DNA from: a virus
Length of the DNA: 27,436 bases
Direction: 5' to 3' (one strand)
Virus record (IMG/VR): IMGVR_UViG_3300009009_000456
Location: 1 to 27,436 of that record
The first letter of the stretch is position 1, and each line of letters starts with the position of its first letter. A program made the position numbers and the translations under genes. The notes under the pieces are model-generated. The model had not been told where the DNA came from. It made no database searches and saw nothing but the letters and a program-made list of their open reading frames with translations. Of this stretch, positions 2,623 through 19,171 are shown in pieces.

Positions 2623-5600
2623 CTATCTCCTATATCCTGCGCCGCCACCAGACCCCTGTGGCCCGGAGGACACTCCGGAAGGTTGAGTTACATTTGAGGG
2701 TTTTTGAGTGGGGGTAGAAGTCTTCTTTTTGGGGGTCTTTTTCTTTGATTCTTTCTTGGGCTGAGCATCCACCTCAACTGGGGGAGCCGCACGAGTACCC
2801 TTCTTGGGGGGATTTTTCAAAGTCTTAAGCTCCGCCTCAGTAGGCCAGCGCCCATTCTGCTGGTAAAAGGTACTTGCCGCAAGCATTCCTTGACCTATTC
2901 CGAGTGCCCCATATACTTTTCCAATACTTGTTTGAACGTTTTTCGGAAGAGCTTTGGAAGTAGGTTGCGCAGTGGGGGTAGCCCCAACCGTACCGTACTG
3001 GGGCTGGGTGATGAAAGACGGACCTACGCCCTGAGGCTGAGTGATAAACGAAGGATCCTTTCCTTGAGGCTGAGTGATAAACGAAGGATCCTTTCCTTGA
3101 GGCTGAGTGATAAACGAAGGATCCTTTCCTTGAGGCTGAGTGATAAAGGTGGGAGCTCCCACCACGGTGCCTTTTTCTCCCGGCTTCTTTTCTTCTGGAA
3201 CCGGCATTGCCGGAACCTTCGCCATGGCCCCAGTAAGCATATCCCCACGAGCTGCGATGTCAGGCCCCGCGTATTCTCCAGGCAATGCTGCAACCATCGG
3301 AGTGAGATTTTCTGTTGTTGCTGAGCTGAGCTTCGTAATAAGCGCATCAGAGAACGGGATATACTCTCCATTAGACATCTGAATATGGGGAACACCGCCT
3401 TTGAGTGAGATTGAATCCGCCGGGAATCCGAGTTTGTCCGCGAGAGCATCTTTGATTGCATCCGGACCGTATCCCGCCCAATTGGTGATGATGTCCTCAA
3501 TCTCTCCACCAAGCTTGCCCCAATCAATATCCTTGATAGAGGGGGGTTGTTTGTCTCCGGTAATCCAGTCGACCCCGGTTTCCACTCCCTTCGCCACACC
3601 CATACTGAATCCGAGGATCTGATCCGGAGTGAAAGAGGGGAAGTCAGCTGACTTGCTGAGTTCGTCGACCTGCGCAAGATACCCAGTTTCAGGATTTGTG
3701 ATCTTGTCTCGAGCTTCCTGCACCTGCTGCAGGTTCTGCCGGAGAACCCCGTCGGTGTTCTCGTATTCCCCAAGTACGTTCATAACTGTAAGCATCCCGG
3801 GGGGAATGCCGTTTGGATCGGACTTGTATTGGGAATAGAGATTATTGATGTGATCCGTAATCACAGAAGGCATTTTGTCCAAGGTACCTGGAGCATTTAC
3901 GGATTTGGTGTATGCGTCGTAGAGCCTATTCATTGCGGTGAAATCTTTGCTCTTGGCTCCGGAGACAGCTAAATCTACCGGGTCTATCTGAGAGTAAGCT
4001 CCTCCAGTAAGTCTAGACACCAACAACGGATCCATAGAATTCAGTCGGCTGAGTTTCTCCTGCCATTCAATCAATTCTGCCAGCTTAGCTCTTTCTGGGC
4101 CTGGGACGTTTGCCTGTATCCAAGGGTTATTCCCCACCTGCTGAAAGATGGCGTTAAATCGGGACACATCTCGGCGCAGAACGTCTTGCACTTTGCTGGC
4201 GAACTTGGTGTAGATTCCGTTCTTCTGCGCACCTAAATCGTCAATCTGCTGCTGTACGTTCGCCAGAACTCCGGGAATGCCTTTCTCCGGATCTCCATCA
4301 ATCTCCGCGAGTCTTCCCTTCAGCGACGATCTCCACTGATTGATATAGGTGTCTTTTTTGGTTATTTCCTGATTCTGTTTCTCGTGAAAAATACTTACCA
4401 ACTGCTCCTTCTGTTCTGGAGTCATGTTGGTGAGCGTACGGGAAATAAGGCTAGATTTGGCGTCGGCGTCCAATGCATTCCATGTTTTGTCGTCTATCTG
4501 CAGCGACTGGCGGACAAAGTCTTCCGTCTTACTCTGGGCGAATGTCTTAAGACTCTCTACGATTCCACGGTTCAGAGCCACCACACCCGCAGCCAAGCTA
4601 CCCGTGCGATTTGCAGTTTCCATGGCTGTGTCTATCGTGGACCCAATGCTGGTCGCAGTATCCACTCCGATGCCTCGGATCAGTTCGTGCATCTTCTCCG
4701 TCTTCTCTTCCGGAGACAGAGTTTTATCTTTCATGAGAGCATTGATCTGCAGCTTATCTTCGACCGAGGGCTCGACGAACTGAGTTTTCTCGAATCCGTC
4801 TTCTCCTTGGATGTTAATCGGAATCTTTCCCGTGGTGCCCAGAGAGTTAATCCAAGTATACAGCTGGCCTTCTTTGGAGCCACTCCCGGCCTTACCAATG
4901 TAGTCTGCTATGGCCTGTCGCTGTTCTACCCCAAGTCCGCTGTTGGGATCGTTCATGGCGTTATACAGGATGGAGGTAAAATCTCCCCCCTCCTGGAAGC
5001 TCTCAAACCATTTCATAGCGGCAACACCACCCGCACTGTCGTCCAATGCAAGCTCTGCTTTTACTGCTTCAGCCGCTCCTTTGAATGCGGTGTCAATGGT
5101 GTCTCTAGCGGACTGAAATCCTCCCGCCGCTTCATCCATATAGCTCTGGAATCCGGACATGAGTTCGGAGTGTACCGCCTCTTTTCTCCTCGCTGCCGCC
5201 TGTCCTTCTGCGGATTCCGTGTCATATTTCTTCTTGAGGTTCTCTTCGAAGTCTCCTCCGAATAATCCGGAGCTGAACTCTCGGGCTTTTTCAATCTCCG
5301 TGCGGAGAGTATCCGAACTCAACTGGGCGATGTCCAGTGCGGAGTATCCTGTGTCGGCTTGATCCCCATACCACTTGGTTTCTTCTCCGGCGGGATCGAC
5401 TCCCATGAGTTTGTTGTACGACTGCATCGCCTCTCGGAGACTTGAAACCATTCCGAACTGATCCTGTTCTCGGATCTGCGCTTCGAGAGCTTTTGCTTCC
5501 GGGGAACCGGAAAGTCCTCGTGCTTCTAAATCTTGAAGAGCGGTCACCGTCTGAAGGAGAGAGGAGATCTGTGGGTCTTCTCCGAACTGCTCTTCCAGGA

Positions 5601-6162
5601 CTTGCCCAAACTGTTTTCCTACGAGCTTCTCTCCGACCTGCTGAGCGAAGGGACTTAAACTCTGTTTAAGTTTCTCCTGCTGGCGCATCTTTTCTTGGAG
5701 AACAGGTTCGATGTCTGCTTGCTGTTCGGAAATGGACAGCACGTATTTTTTTGAGTCCGGGTCATATTTGTACTGCTCTTTGGCTTGCCCCAGCCCAACA
5801 GCTGACGCACCTCCCTGGAGGAATTGGTTCACATATCCACGCAGGGTGTAAGAGAAGTTGGACAGTTTACTTGCTACGTTCTCCACCGCCATACTTACGG
5901 GAGAAGCCTGCTGCTGCTGTCGAGCTTGCTGCGAGGTTTGGGTTTGTTGTTCCTGTCGACCTTCTTGTTCTGTCTGCGCCCGTTCCCCGGCAGTGGTTCC
6001 TTTTTCTTCCTTGGGCTTGACCTCATTCTGCTGCTGCGACGCCAAAGGGCTACGAGCAAAGGACATATCCTCCTGCTTTGGCGTGAGCCCAGAGATATTG
6101 CCTTGGGCCATTTGGGTTCGAGTATCTTGCGGCAGCCATGCCGAAGGAGTTCTTAGTCCCAT
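2623..6162 (-). CDS. Large helical internal virion protein with FITQPQG tandem repeats (1179 aa)
   Basis: The frame stays open up to 6198, but ATG 6162 (MGLRTPSAWLPQDTRTQ) has a good GAGGTAAAC ribosome site and follows the TGA of the preceding gene at 6170, so I use it. Residues about 25-95 are Gln-rich and probably disordered. Residues about 100-980 are mostly helical and charged with no membrane segment I can recognise. Residues about 1004-1058 hold five copies of FITQPQ, three in near-exact 11-residue units (FITQPQGKDPS). The C-terminus is Lys/Pro/Ser-rich and ends GGGAGYRR. Length, position after the tail nozzle and composition suggest a large ejected core protein like T7 gp15/gp16 or P22 gp16, but I see no transglycosylase motif. 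The family is not recognised. Confidence 0.88.
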   Translation of the reverse strand: MGLRTPSAWLPQDTRTQMAQGNISGLTPKQEDMSFARSPLASQQQNEVKPKEEKGTTAGERAQTEQEGRQEQQTQTSQQARQQQQASPVSMAVENVASKLSNFSYTLRGYVNQFLQGGASAVGLGQAKEQYKYDPDSKKYVLSISEQQADIEPVLQEKMRQQEKLKQSLSPFAQQVGEKLVGKQFGQVLEEQFGEDPQISSLLQTVTALQDLEARGLSGSPEAKALEAQIREQDQFGMVSSLREAMQSYNKLMGVDPAGEETKWYGDQADTGYSALDIAQLSSDTLRTEIEKAREFSSGLFGGDFEENLKKKYDTESAEGQAAARRKEAVHSELMSGFQSYMDEAAGGFQSARDTIDTAFKGAAEAVKAELALDDSAGGVAAMKWFESFQEGGDFTSILYNAMNDPNSGLGVEQRQAIADYIGKAGSGSKEGQLYTWINSLGTTGKIPINIQGEDGFEKTQFVEPSVEDKLQINALMKDKTLSPEEKTEKMHELIRGIGVDTATSIGSTIDTAMETANRTGSLAAGVVALNRGIVESLKTFAQSKTEDFVRQSLQIDDKTWNALDADAKSSLISRTLTNMTPEQKEQLVSIFHEKQNQEITKKDTYINQWRSSLKGRLAEIDGDPEKGIPGVLANVQQQIDDLGAQKNGIYTKFASKVQDVLRRDVSRFNAIFQQVGNNPWIQANVPGPERAKLAELIEWQEKLSRLNSMDPLLVSRLTGGAYSQIDPVDLAVSGAKSKDFTAMNRLYDAYTKSVNAPGTLDKMPSVITDHINNLYSQYKSDPNGIPPGMLTVMNVLGEYENTDGVLRQNLQQVQEARDKITNPETGYLAQVDELSKSADFPSFTPDQILGFSMGVAKGVETGVDWITGDKQPPSIKDIDWGKLGGEIEDIITNWAGYGPDAIKDALADKLGFPADSISLKGGVPHIQMSNGEYIPFSDALITKLSSATTENLTPMVAALPGEYAGPDIAARGDMLTGAMAKVPAMPVPEEKKPGEKGTVVGAPTFITQPQGKDPSFITQPQGKDPSFITQPQGKDPSFITQPQGVGPSFITQPQYGTVGATPTAQPTSKALPKNVQTSIGKVYGALGIGQGMLAASTFYQQNGRWPTEAELKTLKNPPKKGTRAAPPVEVDAQPKKESKKKTPKKKTSTPTQKPSNVTQPSGVSSGPQGSGGGAGYRR
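2999..3147 (-). repeat. 33-bp tandem repeat in the 1179-aa gene
   Basis: Three identical 33-bp units lie at 3032-3064, 3065-3097 and 3098-3130. A truncated fourth copy follows (3131-3147, first 17 bp identical), and a diverged copy precedes them (2999-3031). On the coding strand each unit encodes KDPSFITQPQG, so the reading frame is kept for any copy number. Perfect identity of three units points to recent duplication or slippage rather than old divergence. Confidence 0.95.
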
Positions 6163-6169
6163 GTTTACC

Positions 6170-6685
6170 TCAGAAGATGAGCGCGGTGACAGTCTCAAGA
6201 GCCAGAGACACTACCCAGATATTAGCATACATGAAGTTTTCATCCAACGTGAACTCATTACCTGTGATATTTTCGATGGTTCTGAAGTTGGATCCAAGGA
6301 GTACTTTGTCCCCCACTTGAAAAAGTGCCGGATCTTTCACGTAAATTTTCTGGGTTAAACGTCCAGTCGGTTCGGTCGCCAGTGAAGTAGTCAATAGTTT
6401 AGGCACCACCGTGATTTTATCCTGGGTGGAGGCCGAGATGTTGAACATTTCTACCCTACCGCAGAAAACTACGTTTTTCCGAGTACCTTGTCGGTGGTTT
6501 ACCTGGGAGGGCTGATTGTGGATCAATGTCACTTGCTGGACAGGCAGTGCCACGTCCGCCCCAAGTTTCAGGGGATTAGCATTAAAATCAATAAGATACT
6601 TGCAGACTAGGTTGTAGTGCTGGAAGAATCTGGCCAGTTCAGGTGGCTCACCATTGGGTTTGAATAGTTGTGCCTCGAATTTCAT
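6170..6685 (-). CDS. Hypothetical protein downstream of tail nozzle (171 aa)
   Basis: Its start overlaps the nozzle gene stop as ATGA (6682-6685), and an AGGAGGCGATCG ribosome site precedes it. The protein is probably beta-rich: residues 40-170 alternate hydrophobic and polar residues, including the stretch ALFQVGDKVLLGSNFRTIEN. The hydrophobic C-terminus (VVSLALETVTALIF) is too irregular to call a membrane helix. It has no signal peptide or catalytic motif. Coupling to the nozzle gene suggests a tail accessory or tail-tip subunit, but this is only an inference from context. I do not recognise a family. Confidence 0.85.
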   Translation of the reverse strand: MKFEAQLFKPNGEPPELARFFQHYNLVCKYLIDFNANPLKLGADVALPVQQVTLIHNQPSQVNHRQGTRKNVVFCGRVEMFNISASTQDKITVVPKLLTTSLATEPTGRLTQKIYVKDPALFQVGDKVLLGSNFRTIENITGNEFTLDENFMYANIWVVSLALETVTALIF

Positions 6686-9600
6686 CGATCGCCTCCTGCT
6701 CTAGTGTTCTTCTGAGGTACGAGTCTGGTATTTGTCAGCATTCCCTGCACCTGTACGGAATAAATAGGACAGTCCGTGTCTATCGTCGCCTCGGTGAAGA
6801 GGAAGGACACTTGGGCCACCCTTTGACCAAACGTTTCTCGAATGGCTTTCATTACCCGGTCATTTCCGTACCATTTGGCTCCCGCCACGGTTTCGGCCCC
6901 AGTGATTGGGTACGTCTCTAGTGGATACGTGGTGCTCTTGAAGTCTATCTGGTAGCTAACGTTCATGGTGAAGTCGCTGGTGGTTCCGAACTGGAACAAC
7001 ACATTGCGCCAGAACTTGAAGTTCACTCCCTCGTCTGCCGTGAGATACCGAGTCAGCATGGCGAATGGGACGGCTTCTTCTCCGTCACGATACCGGCTCA
7101 GGAATGGCTCGGAGCGCAGGCGATAGACTCGTCCTCTGCTCGATGCGAAATAGTACTCTCCGTTGATGGAAGTCCACTTGTAGGCGTCGAATCCTTTATT
7201 CACCTGCCATCCCATGACGCCATCGTTGTAGCAGTAGTTAAACTGCCCATCAATATCCGCCGTGTCGGTGATATAGTTACTGACGTATGGGGTTCCAACA
7301 TAGAGCTGCTTGTTCTTTTGGTCCGCAAATCCGGCTGTGCGAGACAGGAGGTACTGACTCTTATTCACCCGGTCTTCAAACAGCTTGTTAAGCTTGAGGA
7401 CAGGTTCCACAGCATTGCCGTCGGTGTAATAGACTCCCTCAGGATTGATGAAGTACATATAGGACAAGGTAGATGGCATGTTATTGTGGCCGTATCCTCC
7501 CACAGGAGACTGTATACGCTGAAAAGTCAAATCGCCGTAGTTGTCGAAAGTTCCGCGCCAGAGAGAATTCTTCTTTTGGACAATCAAAGTATTCTGGAAT
7601 GAGGAAGCCCCGAGAATTTCGGAGTCATCCTGAGTGTCTAAGTCGTAGTAATTTCCTTCTCCGAACATAGGGATATTGGGAGAGATTACCGTTTCCGAAC
7701 GAGCATCAGTCCACTGAATTCTATTGGGATAATTATCCAGAATCGAGGTTCCAGATGTAGAGGAGCTAGTATGATGCTTGCCGAATATAACTTTTCGTGT
7801 TTTGTAAGTGCCAGTGCCGTCATTTACAAATTGAGTTGACTGATAAAACGCATCCGTGGCCAATGAAACAAACGCCGCGGAATACCAGAAATCATACTGA
7901 GTCCATCGAAATGGGTTATATTGGCTGTATCCAGTATATATGTCTGTAATATAGTTTAATACTGAAGTATTGGCAGAAATTATAATTTCATTCGGCTCTG
8001 CCTCCATCAATCCCGCCGGATAACTATCATTATATGCATAGAAGAAATGGTTATATAGGGAATTTATTGCTCCAGTGATTCTTTTCCCTACCTGAACTAG
8101 CCCCACATCTACCAATAATGGGGTTTTGGAAAATATAGGTAGTGCGAGGTCCAACAGAGAGTCAGCCAATCCCAGAGAAATAGGGCAGGGAACAGGAATT
8201 CCATAGGTGGAAGACGTAGATACATTTGTGAAACTGGAGTATCTAATCCCGGTAATTTTAGAATAATCAATAGCGGTAAGATTGGTTCGAAGGGTGGCGT
8301 ATCCTGAAGAATCTCCACCGACTCTCCAGTAATAGCCAGATAGTCCGACATCTGCAGAAGTGAAATCCGCTCCCCGCAGCAGCAGAAAAGACGCATAGGC
8401 TTGAGCGGCATTACCCACGGTGAGTGACCGAGTCAAGCTCTGATAGGGTTGGGCTCCGGTACCGACGTATACCCTTATGTTTCCAGAAGTCAAATAAATT
8501 ATTTTTTTGGCGTTGACGATGTAACTATACTCATCCAGTTCAATGGAGGTTGTCGCAGTGGTAGCGGATCGAAATTCAGGGGAATACGGCACATCTATAG
8601 TGATATAGTAGGGGCTTCCTCCTCCAGTATTTCCAACAGATTTGACTCTAAAAGCCCCAGGCATCAGTTTTGGAAATCCCTGAGGTATTCGCTTCTGATC
8701 CCCGTCGGACAACTCAACTATGGCATAGTCATCTACAGCAAACAAAGTATCTATGCGTAGGGTGGTATGGTAAACGGTCAGGGTAGTAGATGGTAGCGTG
8801 AATCCTGAAAACGTCACGGGAGAAGTGAGCGCTGCTCTTTCATAGATCGTCATGGAGTAAGAAAACGCTCCAAGATCCATGATTTCATCTGCGACTACTT
8901 CATACTTCTGGGCCGCATATGCTCCGGTAGCATCAAGAGTGAAGGTAATGGGAAACAGACGAATGGATTTGTACGTGCGAGTGCCTACGGACACAGTTCC
9001 CGTTATTACCGCTTCAGTAATGAAGGTCAAATCGGAGTCGAACGACAGTATTTTTGTAGTTCCGGCTTTTCGGATATTTCCGAGGGTGCTGGGGCCATTG
9101 ATAATGCAGTAACTGTTTGGCTGTGCCGGAGCAACCGGGGCGGCAATTGTGGCGTCGTAATAGTAATAGATCTTGGTTTCTCCAGCTTCCGTGGAGATAA
9201 CGATTCCATAGTCGGCATTGTCCACCTGAGACTGCAATACTCTTTTCGAAAGTGCGTCTGTCCAACTTCCTCCAGAAACATATGCTTCTGGGAACTCCAA
9301 AGCCGTAGTGTCACGAAGAGCTATTGGAATGCCGGTGGAGTCCAGAGAGGCATCCGTCCATCGAGTAGAACCACGAAGGGTGGTCGGACTAGCTGGGGGA
9401 CTAGTAAGTGATTTGAAAGTGTCTCCGAGGAAATCTATTGGCAAACCCGTTGGGGTGGCACTGCCAGCGAATCGGAATTTCACAGACTGATCAGTAGTCA
9501 CAGTGGTGGTTACATTGAAACGATCTGAAACGTCCCCATACGTAAGTTTGAGTTTCACTCGGGGGGACGTGGCCAACGTATCCCCATTTACTGAGCATCC

Positions 9601-15675: not shown

Positions 15676-16590
15676 TTATGGGTTGATGGCGACAACGACA
15701 GTGTCGATGTCGAACACGGGAGGCGTATGGGTAGCTGCGGCATAGCTCGCTCCGTGACATGTACGGGCCGCAAACTGAAGTCCGCTGGCTACTGTAGCCG
15801 CTATCGAAACCACGAACGCATCGTCAATGAACAAAGAGACTGTGGGAGTTCCTCCAGTCGTCGAGTAGTTGTTCTCAATGCGATAGGTGTGCTTTCCGGA
15901 AGTCGGAATCGGGAACGCCGCACTGGTGAGAATCGTTCCCGCCGTGGCAGGACGAATCCGAAGGTATCCATTTCCGGCGTAGAACTTCAGAGCCACGAAA
16001 GCAACGTCGCTGGTTCCATCCACGTATCCGAACTCTTTCGATGCATCAACGAAGTGCGTGGCGAGATCGCCCGCTCCCATGAATCCGATTTCCTGGAACG
16101 CCACGCCGACAGCATAAGCATTCTTCGGAACGGTAAGTTCGAACTGAGCAACCCAAGGAGTGGACCCTGGAATCCAGAGAGCTCCTTCCTGAGAAACACC
16201 CGCCACGTTCGCTGCATTGACGTCACGATTCGTGAGGCGAAGAACACCCGTGGAGGACGCTGTGGTAGAAGCCACAGGGATACCTACAGTGGAAGCTGTG
16301 GGGGTTGAATCCGACCCACGAAGAGCCAAGAGGTGTCCCGTTCCAGTCACGTAGTAAGGATCCAAGTCTGCATCCAGACCGGTGAGTCCGGTGATATACG
16401 TGGCGACATCGACTTCATCGCCGCCGCCCACGTCGGTACGCACATAGTGAACCAGTCCCTTGCCCTGAAAAGTCTCAATCATTCCGCACTGCATAGCAGA
16501 GAGAAGGAGTCCGTTGTTGGACCGCTTGCCAGCAGACAGATGCCGGTCAAGTGTGTCCTGTTGAAGTCTCGATAATCCAATTGCTGGCAT
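15676..16590 (-). CDS. Structural protein with lectin-like (concanavalin-type) beta domain (304 aa)
   Basis: It starts at ATG 16590 behind AAAGGA. Residues 1-80 are mixed (MPAIGLSRLQQDTLDRHLSA at the start). Residues about 85-304 look like a beta-sandwich of the concanavalin A-like/LamG type: long alternating strands, a KHTYRIENN strand, then TPTVSLFIDDAFVVSI, then a closing strand VFDIDTVVVAINP. This is the usual 'Y.i....g.v.lyIDg..v' order of those folds, which often bind sugars or other proteins on the virion surface. Next to the major capsid gene (with only the homing endonuclease between), it could be a head decoration or head-fibre protein. The fold call is by pattern only. Confidence 0.82.
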   Translation of the reverse strand: MPAIGLSRLQQDTLDRHLSAGKRSNNGLLLSAMQCGMIETFQGKGLVHYVRTDVGGGDEVDVATYITGLTGLDADLDPYYVTGTGHLLALRGSDSTPTASTVGIPVASTTASSTGVLRLTNRDVNAANVAGVSQEGALWIPGSTPWVAQFELTVPKNAYAVGVAFQEIGFMGAGDLATHFVDASKEFGYVDGTSDVAFVALKFYAGNGYLRIRPATAGTILTSAAFPIPTSGKHTYRIENNYSTTGGTPTVSLFIDDAFVVSIAATVASGLQFAARTCHGASYAAATHTPPVFDIDTVVVAINP

Positions 16591-16618: not shown

Positions 16619-17305
16619 TCAATCAGGAATTGGAACACCCAACTCCTTCAGTTTTTCATTCCGACACTCAATAGCTGCTTCAAGAGTAGTCCTTGTGGTG
16701 ATAATTCGAGGTTCGCAGCAAGTTATTTGGATATGATACTTGGGCTTGCCATTCTTATTCACCACAGTAACGTACTTGCGTTTGGTTAAAGTTTTCCTGT
16801 CAGGAGCAGGTTTCTCATTCACATCTGGGAAATTGACTACCGCAAATGCTCCTCTGCGCTGTCTTGCTTCGTAGTCATATGCTTTGGCAGCATTCTCCTC
16901 CGAATCAAAATAGCCGATGTGCTCTCCATCGATAGTTGCAACCCATCGCTGGTGCGTAGCCCAGGAAACCCCGGTATACCGGGAAGTAGTCTCCCGTTTG
17001 CGTTTGCTCCTGTTCCAGGAATTCTCCTGAAAGGTGACCATTCGAAGATTGCTTTTACGACAATTCAATGGGTTTCTGTCGATATGATCCACCACCACTC
17101 CGGATTTTCTCGGCAGTCCGAGAATTGTCTGGTGCAGTTTTTGATTCCAGAAAATCCCATTGGGAGCTTTCACTTTGCGTTGGGCATATTGCTTCGTTCC
17201 CGAGCAAGCATACCATACACTTTTTGAAAGTTCCTCGTACATATCGTCGTCCACCTCAATCTCGAAAACCTTAACCCCGCCCTTGAATACTGGTATCTGT
17301 GCCAT
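16619..17305 (-). CDS. Free-standing HNH-AP2 homing endonuclease (228 aa)
   Basis: The correct start is ATG 17305 (MAQIPVFKGG), with GGAGGA five bases upstream; an in-frame TTG at 17317 has no ribosome site. The HNH core lies at residues 72-98 (VDHIDRNPLNCRKSNLRMV, then FQENSWN), with the Asp-His pair at 73-74 and Asn at 81 and 96. An AP2-type DNA-binding domain follows at 108-160 (SRYTGVSWATHQRWVATIDG, then YFDSEENAAKAYD). This pairing is typical of phage selfish endonucleases that cut an allele lacking them and spread by recombination. Residues 178-223 look like a second, degenerate AP2-like unit ending TLEAAIECRNEKLKELG. It sits between the capsid gene and its partner structural gene, with its own promoter and a start site hidden in a hairpin. 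Confidence 0.93.
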   Translation of the reverse strand: MAQIPVFKGGVKVFEIEVDDDMYEELSKSVWYACSGTKQYAQRKVKAPNGIFWNQKLHQTILGLPRKSGVVVDHIDRNPLNCRKSNLRMVTFQENSWNRSKRKRETTSRYTGVSWATHQRWVATIDGEHIGYFDSEENAAKAYDYEARQRRGAFAVVNFPDVNEKPAPDRKTLTKRKYVTVVNKNGKPKYHIQITCCEPRIITTRTTLEAAIECRNEKLKELGVPIPD

Positions 17306-17338
17306 ATTGTCCTCCAATCGTTAGACGGAGGACAATAT
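17304..17338 (-). promoter_or_regulatory. RBS-sequestering hairpin at the endonuclease start
   Basis: A perfect 12-bp inverted repeat (17304-17315 and 17327-17338) is separated by an 11-nt loop. In the minus-strand RNA the downstream arm contains the Shine-Dalgarno GGAGGA and the first two bases of the ATG, so RNA carrying both arms would block ribosome access. There is no U-tract after it, so it is not an intrinsic terminator. Homing endonuclease genes of T4 (I-TevI) are known to be silenced in read-through RNA by such a hairpin. Confidence 0.85.
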
Positions 17339-17360
17339 CCGAATCTCCCGCATTCGTCAA
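17332..17360 (-). promoter_or_regulatory. Candidate sigma70-type promoter for the endonuclease
   Basis: On the minus strand TTGACG (17355-17360) and TATTGT (17332-17337) are 17 bp apart, matching the consensus boxes at five and four of six positions. Initiation would fall near 17323-17327, at the end of the upstream hairpin arm. The resulting RNA would lack that arm and leave the ribosome site free. The -10 box itself lies inside the inverted repeat. Confidence 0.55.
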
Positions 17361-17365
17361 TTGAC

Positions 17366-19171
17366 TTACAGTATACTTATGGTAAAGTTTCTGAAGAACA
17401 GACAGTCGCGGAGATTCTCAACATACTGTTCTCCTTGTATGGTGTAATACTGCTCATACGCGTTAACTCTTCGAGCAGAACTGTTGAGAGCCATGTACTG
17501 ACGCTGGCCATCAACTTCCACCGGGTCAAGAGTTCCACCCTTCATCTGGATCGCATCCTTCGGAATACCGACGATACGGTCAAGACGCATGGAGGAGTTC
17601 ATGTTCAGCTCGAACTTCTTGTTGCCCACCTGAATGGTCTTACACGAGGTACCACGGATGCCCTTGTCATCGGTGATACGGCGGTCAGCCTCAGAGAGCG
17701 ACAGGAGCGAGGTGTACACCAGCGGGTTCATGTCGAGAAGGTTCCACTGAATCACGTCTGCCGAGTTCGGATCCTTGTCACGGTTACGAACATAGTGCTC
17801 AGCCACACCAGCGAAGAGTCCGTTGAACGTCAGAGCCTGAGAGTTCAAGTCCTTCTTCGTCGGGAGGTACTGCTGGATGCTGTAGCGAGGAACGCCCTGA
17901 ACGAGGTTCGTATCATTGAAAATCAACGATTCGATACCAGTCATCAGGTACGGGTTCACAAGCGACACGTCCTGGGTAACACCGTAGGCAGAGTCCACGT
18001 TCGCATCCCAGCCGAGGCCGAGAATCGCACGAGCCGCTGCAGCATTGGTGGTGGTAGCCCCAGAGAACGAGCTGAAGTCCGAATTGCCGATGCCGTAGTC
18101 AACGGTTCCCGTAGGAATATACCCGGTGAGGACCAAGAAGGTCGCTGTCGGATGGTCCGCAGCCACGTAGCTGGTGAATCCGGCATAGCTGAAGAAGTGA
18201 TCAAGACCGAGGGAGGCACCGCCAGTAAGACCATTGGTATCCGTCGGAGCACCGAGAGCAGTCGTACGACCCTGCCACGGAGTGACAGTCACAGTACCTG
18301 TTCCGCCGCACCACATCGTGGACGAACCGCCCTGCTGCACCATGTGCGAGGCGTCTACCGTCGTATAGGGAGTGTAGGTGTCGCTGTCTCCAGCGGCCTT
18401 ACGTGCGGGAGCGAGAAGAACCTCGTTCGCCGACTGGTTGATACGGACAACACGGAAAGCATCGTAATACGAGCGAACCGTAGAAGCCTTGAATCCGAGA
18501 ACGGCGAAACGAGGAACGCAGTCAGCCTTCGTGGTGGCAACCGTGCCATTGTCATCGTCGTCATAGTTCGGATACAGGAACGAAACCACCATACCTTCCA
18601 TACAGTAGGCGGCAGATCCGGTTGCGGTGTCGAGCGAAGAGAGCTTGACCTTCAGAAGAGTCGAAGGGCTGGCAATCGTGAAGCTGTTTCCAGTTGCGGT
18701 GTTGGATGCACCAAGACCGATAGGAGTAGCAACACGGCCTGTGCCGTCCATAATCTGCTGGAGGTTCGTGAAGCTCTTCTGGAACAGAGTCTTCTGCTCA
18801 TATTCCATCTTCATCGAGCCCAAGTAAGCCTTGGCATCGCTGTCAGTCAACTTGCCCATGATTCGGTCGAAGTACATGGTCATCGTCTGATACTTCGGAA
18901 CCATGAACGCCTGAATTCCGTATGCACGGTCAGGGTTGGCAAACACGCCACCAACGGAGTTCAAACCACTGAACGCTCCACCACCGGCATCAACGGTCAT
19001 GTGGTAACGGAATTCCTTACCCCCAGGCCATTCGCCCTTCTTGGTGACCGAGTCCAAACCCGAGACAACACGCCACAGGGTCTTGGAACCTTTTTCCTGG
19101 ATAAACTTAAGCAGGTCTGACTGCTTAAACTGCGCATTTGAAAATGCGTTGTTCTCTGCAATAACTGGCAT
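17366..19171 (-). CDS. Major capsid protein (601 aa)
   Basis: The start at 19171 has the strongest ribosome site in the window (AAGGAGG, then AAAAA, then ATG), and the gene follows the scaffold by 10 nt. The product is rich in Gly, Ser, Thr, Asn and Ala. An N-terminal arm (MPVIAENNAFSNAQFKQSDL) is followed by an extended-loop-like region (EFRYHMTVDAGGGAFSGLNS) and a long helix around residues 115-150 (SMKMEYEQKTLFQKSFTN). The rest is beta-rich, as expected for an HK97-fold coat protein. At 601 residues it is longer than a minimal HK97 coat, and residues about 155-350 may include an inserted surface domain. Position after portal and scaffold makes the assignment secure. It avoids TTA, CTA and TCA codons, leaving a long in-register antisense open frame. 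Confidence 0.93.
   Translation of the reverse strand: MPVIAENNAFSNAQFKQSDLLKFIQEKGSKTLWRVVSGLDSVTKKGEWPGGKEFRYHMTVDAGGGAFSGLNSVGGVFANPDRAYGIQAFMVPKYQTMTMYFDRIMGKLTDSDAKAYLGSMKMEYEQKTLFQKSFTNLQQIMDGTGRVATPIGLGASNTATGNSFTIASPSTLLKVKLSSLDTATGSAAYCMEGMVVSFLYPNYDDDDNGTVATTKADCVPRFAVLGFKASTVRSYYDAFRVVRINQSANEVLLAPARKAAGDSDTYTPYTTVDASHMVQQGGSSTMWCGGTGTVTVTPWQGRTTALGAPTDTNGLTGGASLGLDHFFSYAGFTSYVAADHPTATFLVLTGYIPTGTVDYGIGNSDFSSFSGATTTNAAAARAILGLGWDANVDSAYGVTQDVSLVNPYLMTGIESLIFNDTNLVQGVPRYSIQQYLPTKKDLNSQALTFNGLFAGVAEHYVRNRDKDPNSADVIQWNLLDMNPLVYTSLLSLSEADRRITDDKGIRGTSCKTIQVGNKKFELNMNSSMRLDRIVGIPKDAIQMKGGTLDPVEVDGQRQYMALNSSARRVNAYEQYYTIQGEQYVENLRDCLFFRNFTISIL

Follow-up and report, generated by a model that had tools for sequence, protein, structure and literature searches.

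A hairpin predicted to hide the translation start of an HNH endonuclease gene behind the capsid gene of an uncultured tailed phage

The translation start of a free-standing HNH endonuclease gene, carried behind the putative capsid gene of an uncultured tailed phage, lies in one arm of a perfect inverted repeat, and a hairpin over the Shine-Dalgarno sequence (SD) is found in every available orthologue, in leaders of differing sequence. The stretch of DNA analysed (hereafter the window) comprises positions 1-27,436 of the IMG/VR record IMGVR_UViG_3300009009_000456. The chances are judged a little better than even that RNA reading through from the capsid gene is silenced by this hairpin and that the endonuclease is made instead from RNA of a local promoter, which lacks the upstream arm. 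The inverted repeat would then work as RNA, not as DNA. On read-through RNA the 5' arm would cover the SD and start codon by base pairing, leaving the HNH gene nearly untranslated, though such RNA should be abundant. Most of the enzyme would come from short RNAs of a promoter with its -10 within or next to the 5' arm; starting near position 17325, these RNAs would be missing most of that arm and would expose the SD. Translational silencing of the read-through RNA is the step best supported in silico, and local transcription omitting the 5' arm is likely.

The HNH gene and its phage setting

The window is a structural-gene block of an uncultured tailed phage, and those of its genes that were tested are identical to the genes of a second IMG/VR contig (IMGVR_UViG_3300027762_000008). 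Its portal is similar to P22/SU10-like portals, while its terminase is distantly related to Pseudomonas phage terminases, including those of Bruynoghevirus. The endonuclease gene (16619-17305, minus strand, ATG at 17305) encodes 228 amino acids with an AP2-like C-terminal part. It matches Pfam HNH_3 (E 4e-9) and PHROG 99, 'HNH endonuclease' (E 8e-31), and HNH-AP2 endonuclease is the annotation in some named phage relatives. It has the nuclease domain expected of a free-standing HNH homing endonuclease; cutting and preferential inheritance are putative. The upstream gene (17366-19171, minus strand, 601 amino acids) is called capsid from its position downstream of the terminase and portal genes. 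It is without a Pfam or PHROG match, and its protein had no match in 50,697 phage records; it is conserved in the related loci L003, L006, L007, L009, and L010. The downstream gene (15676-16590, minus strand, 304 amino acids) is conserved among relatives whether or not they carry the endonuclease. Elsewhere in the window, a gene for a protein of 1191 amino acids (2623-6198, minus strand) contains 11-codon tandem repeats (FITQPQGKDPS).

The site behind the capsid gene is occupied in some close relatives and empty in others, as expected of a free-standing HNH homing endonuclease. The HNH gene is present in the window, L003, L006, and L007; a different HNH gene is found in L010, and only a 3' remnant in L009. 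The remnant lies between the capsid and downstream genes of L009 (6935-6988) and comprises the 3' end of the HNH gene, HRNEKLTEYNIPIPD, with its stop codon; a terminator-like hairpin precedes it near 6853-6880. L009 is a relative that has lost the endonuclease. The HNH gene behind the L010 capsid gene (6870-7614, start at 6964) is unrelated and is separated from the capsid gene by a terminator-like hairpin with a T run, so that its transcription probably depends on a separate promoter. Here too the SD is base-paired (CATCTTCC/GGAGGATG), in a hairpin that is unremarkable by z score (-0.2).

An inverted repeat over the translation start

The arms of the repeat, at 17304-17315 and 17327-17338, are complementary at 12 of 12 positions across an 11-nt loop, and the transcribed (minus) strand reads ...GGATATTGTCCTCC-GTCTAACGATT-GGAGGACAATATGG. 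The 3' arm, GGAGGACAATAT (17304-17315, minus strand), contains the SD GGAGGA (17310-17315) and the first two bases, A and T, of the start codon at 17305. These observations confirm an earlier, sequence-only reading of this DNA, which had described a perfect repeat with GGAGGA and most of the ATG in one arm. Repeat search and folding both delimit the 5' arm, ATATTGTCCTCC (17327-17338, minus strand), and two more predicted pairs close part of the loop, GTCTAACGATT (17316-17326, minus strand). An outer stem, GAATGC (17350-17355) with GTATTC (17285-17290), is predicted on weaker evidence to enclose the hairpin (17285-17355, minus strand). Among non-palindromic inverted repeats of at least 12 nt with arms within 40 nt, this one is unique in the 27-kb window. 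The leader RNA folds at z -4.3 (71 nt) and z -3.5 (90 nt) relative to shuffled sequences. The capsid stop codon precedes the stem by 27 nt, and ribosomes terminating at this codon would probably leave the stem closed.

Pairing kept in related phages

Orthologues of the HNH gene occur in four related loci, two of which (L003 and L004) share one leader, so that three further distinct leaders (L003/L004, L006, and L007) could be compared with that of the window. The orthologous lineages that are independent number three, and all structures are predicted. In each locus the orthologue lies between the same two neighbor genes as in the window; identity to the window's proteins is 35-50% for HNH and 62-87% for the capsid. 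The leaders of the window, L003, and L006/L007 align poorly by sequence, and the SD lies in a hairpin in each, with z scores of -4.3 (window), -4.5 (L003), -3.4 (L006), and -4.6 (L007). The L003 hairpin, TCTCC-AAAA-GGAGA, sits inside a long outer stem, and those of L006 and L007 read GCCTCTCTTC-GAAA-GGAGGGAGGT and GCCTCTTTCT-GAAA-GGAGAGAGGC. Loss of pairing in homologues had been named as an observation that would refute the proposed switch; pairing was instead kept in all three further leaders, which supports the hidden start.

Between L006 and L007, five of the ten stem pairs have changed on one side and all ten remain paired, by way of G-U, so that pairing is kept at 100%, vs. 65-81% for slid pairings. 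All five substitutions preserve pairing, and none of the ten pairs has changed in both arms. RNAalifold gave little signal over all five leaders, including that of L010, because these could not be aligned by sequence.

The cost of freeing positions -15 to +3 is 20.0 kcal/mol in L007, 19.0 in the window, 17.1 in L006, and 11.7 in L003, vs. a median of 6.1 over the starts compared. The four HNH starts thereby rank 1, 2, 3, and 7 among 70 starts found mechanically in these phages, some of which are surely not real genes. On RNA initiated upstream, the SD and start codon are predicted to lie inside a stable hairpin, as in the known hairpin-silenced homing endonuclease genes.

Searches for further relatives gave the same nine loci each time viral contigs were scanned for the capsid, and none among GTDB genomes. 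An HNH scan with the L006/L007 pair as query recovered only L006 and L007.

A promoter-like site and predicted release of the start

The sequence-only reading had also placed a promoter within the hairpin. The site is present as described, TTGACG (17355-17360) and TATTGT (17332-17337) separated by 17 nt on the minus strand (17332-17360), and is a match in sequence only. The TATTGT sits inside the 5' arm, and transcripts from it would be expected to start near 17325, some 20 nt upstream of the ATG. Predicted folds of both transcript forms bear out the further claim that RNA from such a promoter could not form the stem, which is largely missing from RNA starting near 17325. Shortening the RNA from the long form to the predicted start lowers the opening cost from 16.9 to 3.5 in the window, 11.6 to 4.9 in L003, 15.2 to 1.2 in L006, 8.4 to 1.3 in L007, and 8.5 to 4.6 in L010. 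The SD is freed in all five leaders, least in L003 and L010.

How far the promoter itself can be trusted was judged from scores in five leaders, four orthologous and one of the unrelated HNH gene of L010. On both strands of a 7-kb region, four matches of this quality were found vs. 4.8 expected by chance, that is, without enrichment. Within the 63-nt leader of the window, the best score has a shuffle p of 0.012. In all five leaders the best match predicts transcription from within or immediately beyond the 5' arm, 14-20 nt ahead of the ATG, and with the arm fixed and the part upstream shuffled, p was 0.020, 0.071, 0.065, 0.014, and 0.031. The combined p is 0.0002 for the five leaders and 0.005 when only the orthologues are taken, each lineage once, both partly post hoc. 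Four of the five leaders carry TTGAC or TTGAT 52-55 nt upstream of the ATG; for a single leader, the probability of such a pentamer within nine positions is about 2.4%. The -35 of L006 is without TTGA, and the -10 matches of the relatives are poor (TAGCCT, CATCTT, and AATGCT). Since the score matrix was an approximate sigma-70 type, and the range of starts was set after seeing the data, these figures support the promoter with only moderate strength. Sites matched in position, whose RNAs would free the SD, occur in all five leaders, but each is weak, and that of the window is at chance level for its region. A promoter inside the hairpin, and a switch operated by it, are plausible on these sequence matches.

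The same figures leave some room for a less probable arrangement, which may be entertained tentatively, in which the hairpin is a constant throttle that lowers translation on one long structural transcript and, without any local promoter, breathing of the stem yields enough enzyme. A strong hairpin kept in relatives fits such a throttle, as does a promoter match at chance level in a region that is not enriched. It would leave the promoter-like sites at the matching place in five of five leaders to coincidence, however, and a stem that costs 8-17 kcal/mol to open, as predicted for the orthologues, would allow very little translation.

Other roles for the hairpin

It is improbable that the hairpin serves the capsid message, protecting or defining the 3' end after the capsid gene, with hiding of the SD as a side effect. 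L009 and L010 carry terminator-like hairpins after the capsid gene and the carriers of the HNH orthologue have the SD hairpin only, a distribution that would suit this role. The stem in the window was nonetheless rejected as an intrinsic terminator because a T run is missing after it, and the 3' arm falls on the SD in all four leaders, which protection would not need. Still less probable is a DNA operator, in which the dyad would be the target of a dimeric repressor or of the endonuclease, much as I-TevI binds the operator of its late promoter. The dyad does overlap the promoter-like site, and autorepression by I-TevI is known (PMC2988022), but the relatives keep the pairing and not the dyad sequence, and G-U pairs break DNA symmetry while preserving RNA pairing. 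A functionless chance repeat, which might account for a single sequence alone, has a negligible likelihood given four distinct leaders, their ranks of 1, 2, 3, and 7 of 70, and a repeat unique in the window.

Leaders of other HNH genes

A strong SD hairpin was rejected as a general rule for phage HNH-AP2 genes: the opening cost of 42 other HNH leaders is like that of neighbor genes (3.74 vs. 4.01, p 0.62), and strong SD hairpins are therefore not general in the family. Pairing of the SD with upstream bases is somewhat higher in these 42 leaders (p 0.007). Promoter scores of 10 or more are commoner before HNH genes (6 of 70, vs. 9 of 471 neighboring genes, p 0.007).

Several individual leaders show arrangements of their own. 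Six distant HNH-AP2 genes (L054, L019, L017, L025, L073, and L055) have strong sigma-70-like sites about 50 nt before the HNH start, for example TTGACA-17-TATATT in L054, with the -10 only 12-16 nt before the ATG and the SD weak or absent, as if leaderless. About 55 nt before the HNH start of L025, L045, and L041, a terminator-like hairpin lies directly 5' of the gene, with a -35-like hexamer in the region of its loop and a -10 within or beyond the T run; promoter and terminator may share sequence here. In L090, 50 nt before the start of an unrelated HNH gene at 3001, the SD forms part of a nine-pair hairpin (GCTCCTTCA/TGAAGGAGC). In L006 (5075-5100) and L007 (7700-7726), a possible 6-bp hairpin (AACTCA...TGAGTT) has the SD of the downstream gene in its loop.

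Relation to known systems

The same arrangement has been described for I-TevI, I-TevII, I-TevIII, segB, and Aeh1 mobE (PMC2988022; PMC3014915). The SD of phage T4 I-TevI lies in a stable hairpin on read-through RNA, and RNA from a local promoter is without the 5' arm (PMC2988022). I-TevI is, however, an intron-encoded GIY-YIG enzyme, in contrast to the free-standing HNH gene considered here, which follows a capsid gene, and it is served by a T4 late promoter within an early/middle transcription unit, whereas the promoter-like site in the window is of sigma-70 type. In mobE of Aeromonas phage Aeh1, an HNH gene that Figure 5 of PMC2988022 draws as free-standing, a hairpin likewise sequesters the ribosome-binding site and the promoter is similarly arranged; an effect of this hairpin on translation is reported as shown (PMC3014915). 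The mobE gene belongs to the ribonucleotide reductase locus of a T4-like phage and is likened to the present gene by arrangement. T4 segB is a free-standing endonuclease gene with a ribosome-site hairpin and a predicted late promoter (PMC2988022) but is of the GIY-YIG family and in a tRNA region, and T4 e and soc, whose SD is hidden in long RNAs (PMC3014915; PMC2988022), are not mobile genes. For insertion sequences, a search of the available literature turned up no useful analogue of read-through silencing. The suggestion that a free-standing HNH gene using this solution would itself be novel does not hold, because mobE is an HNH gene drawn among the free-standing ones and segB is similar (PMC2988022; PMC3014915). 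What is new here is the phage lineage, the position behind the capsid gene, and the comparative evidence.

Timing and implications

In T4 a late gene lies within early RNA; the present endonuclease gene follows a capsid gene, and read-through RNA would therefore be late. Should host polymerase read the local promoter, the endonuclease would appear early and be silenced late, a clear prediction opposite to the timing in T4. The fuller version of this idea is a time-inverted I-TevI switch, in which a host-type promoter would act in the early phase, as the genomes of co-infecting phages meet, while late in infection the hairpin would shut off expression under the flood of capsid read-through; the unrelated HNH gene of L010 would use terminator, hairpin, and promoter. 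Such a switch is unlikely, if by no means far-fetched. Were it true, the L010 arrangement would imply that genes behind capsid genes have more than once evolved insulation from read-through. The leaders, in which sequence shifts and structure stays, provide a small comparative test that the hidden start is under selection, and hairpin silencing of homing endonucleases would extend beyond the T4-like phages to an uncultured group with an unmatched capsid.
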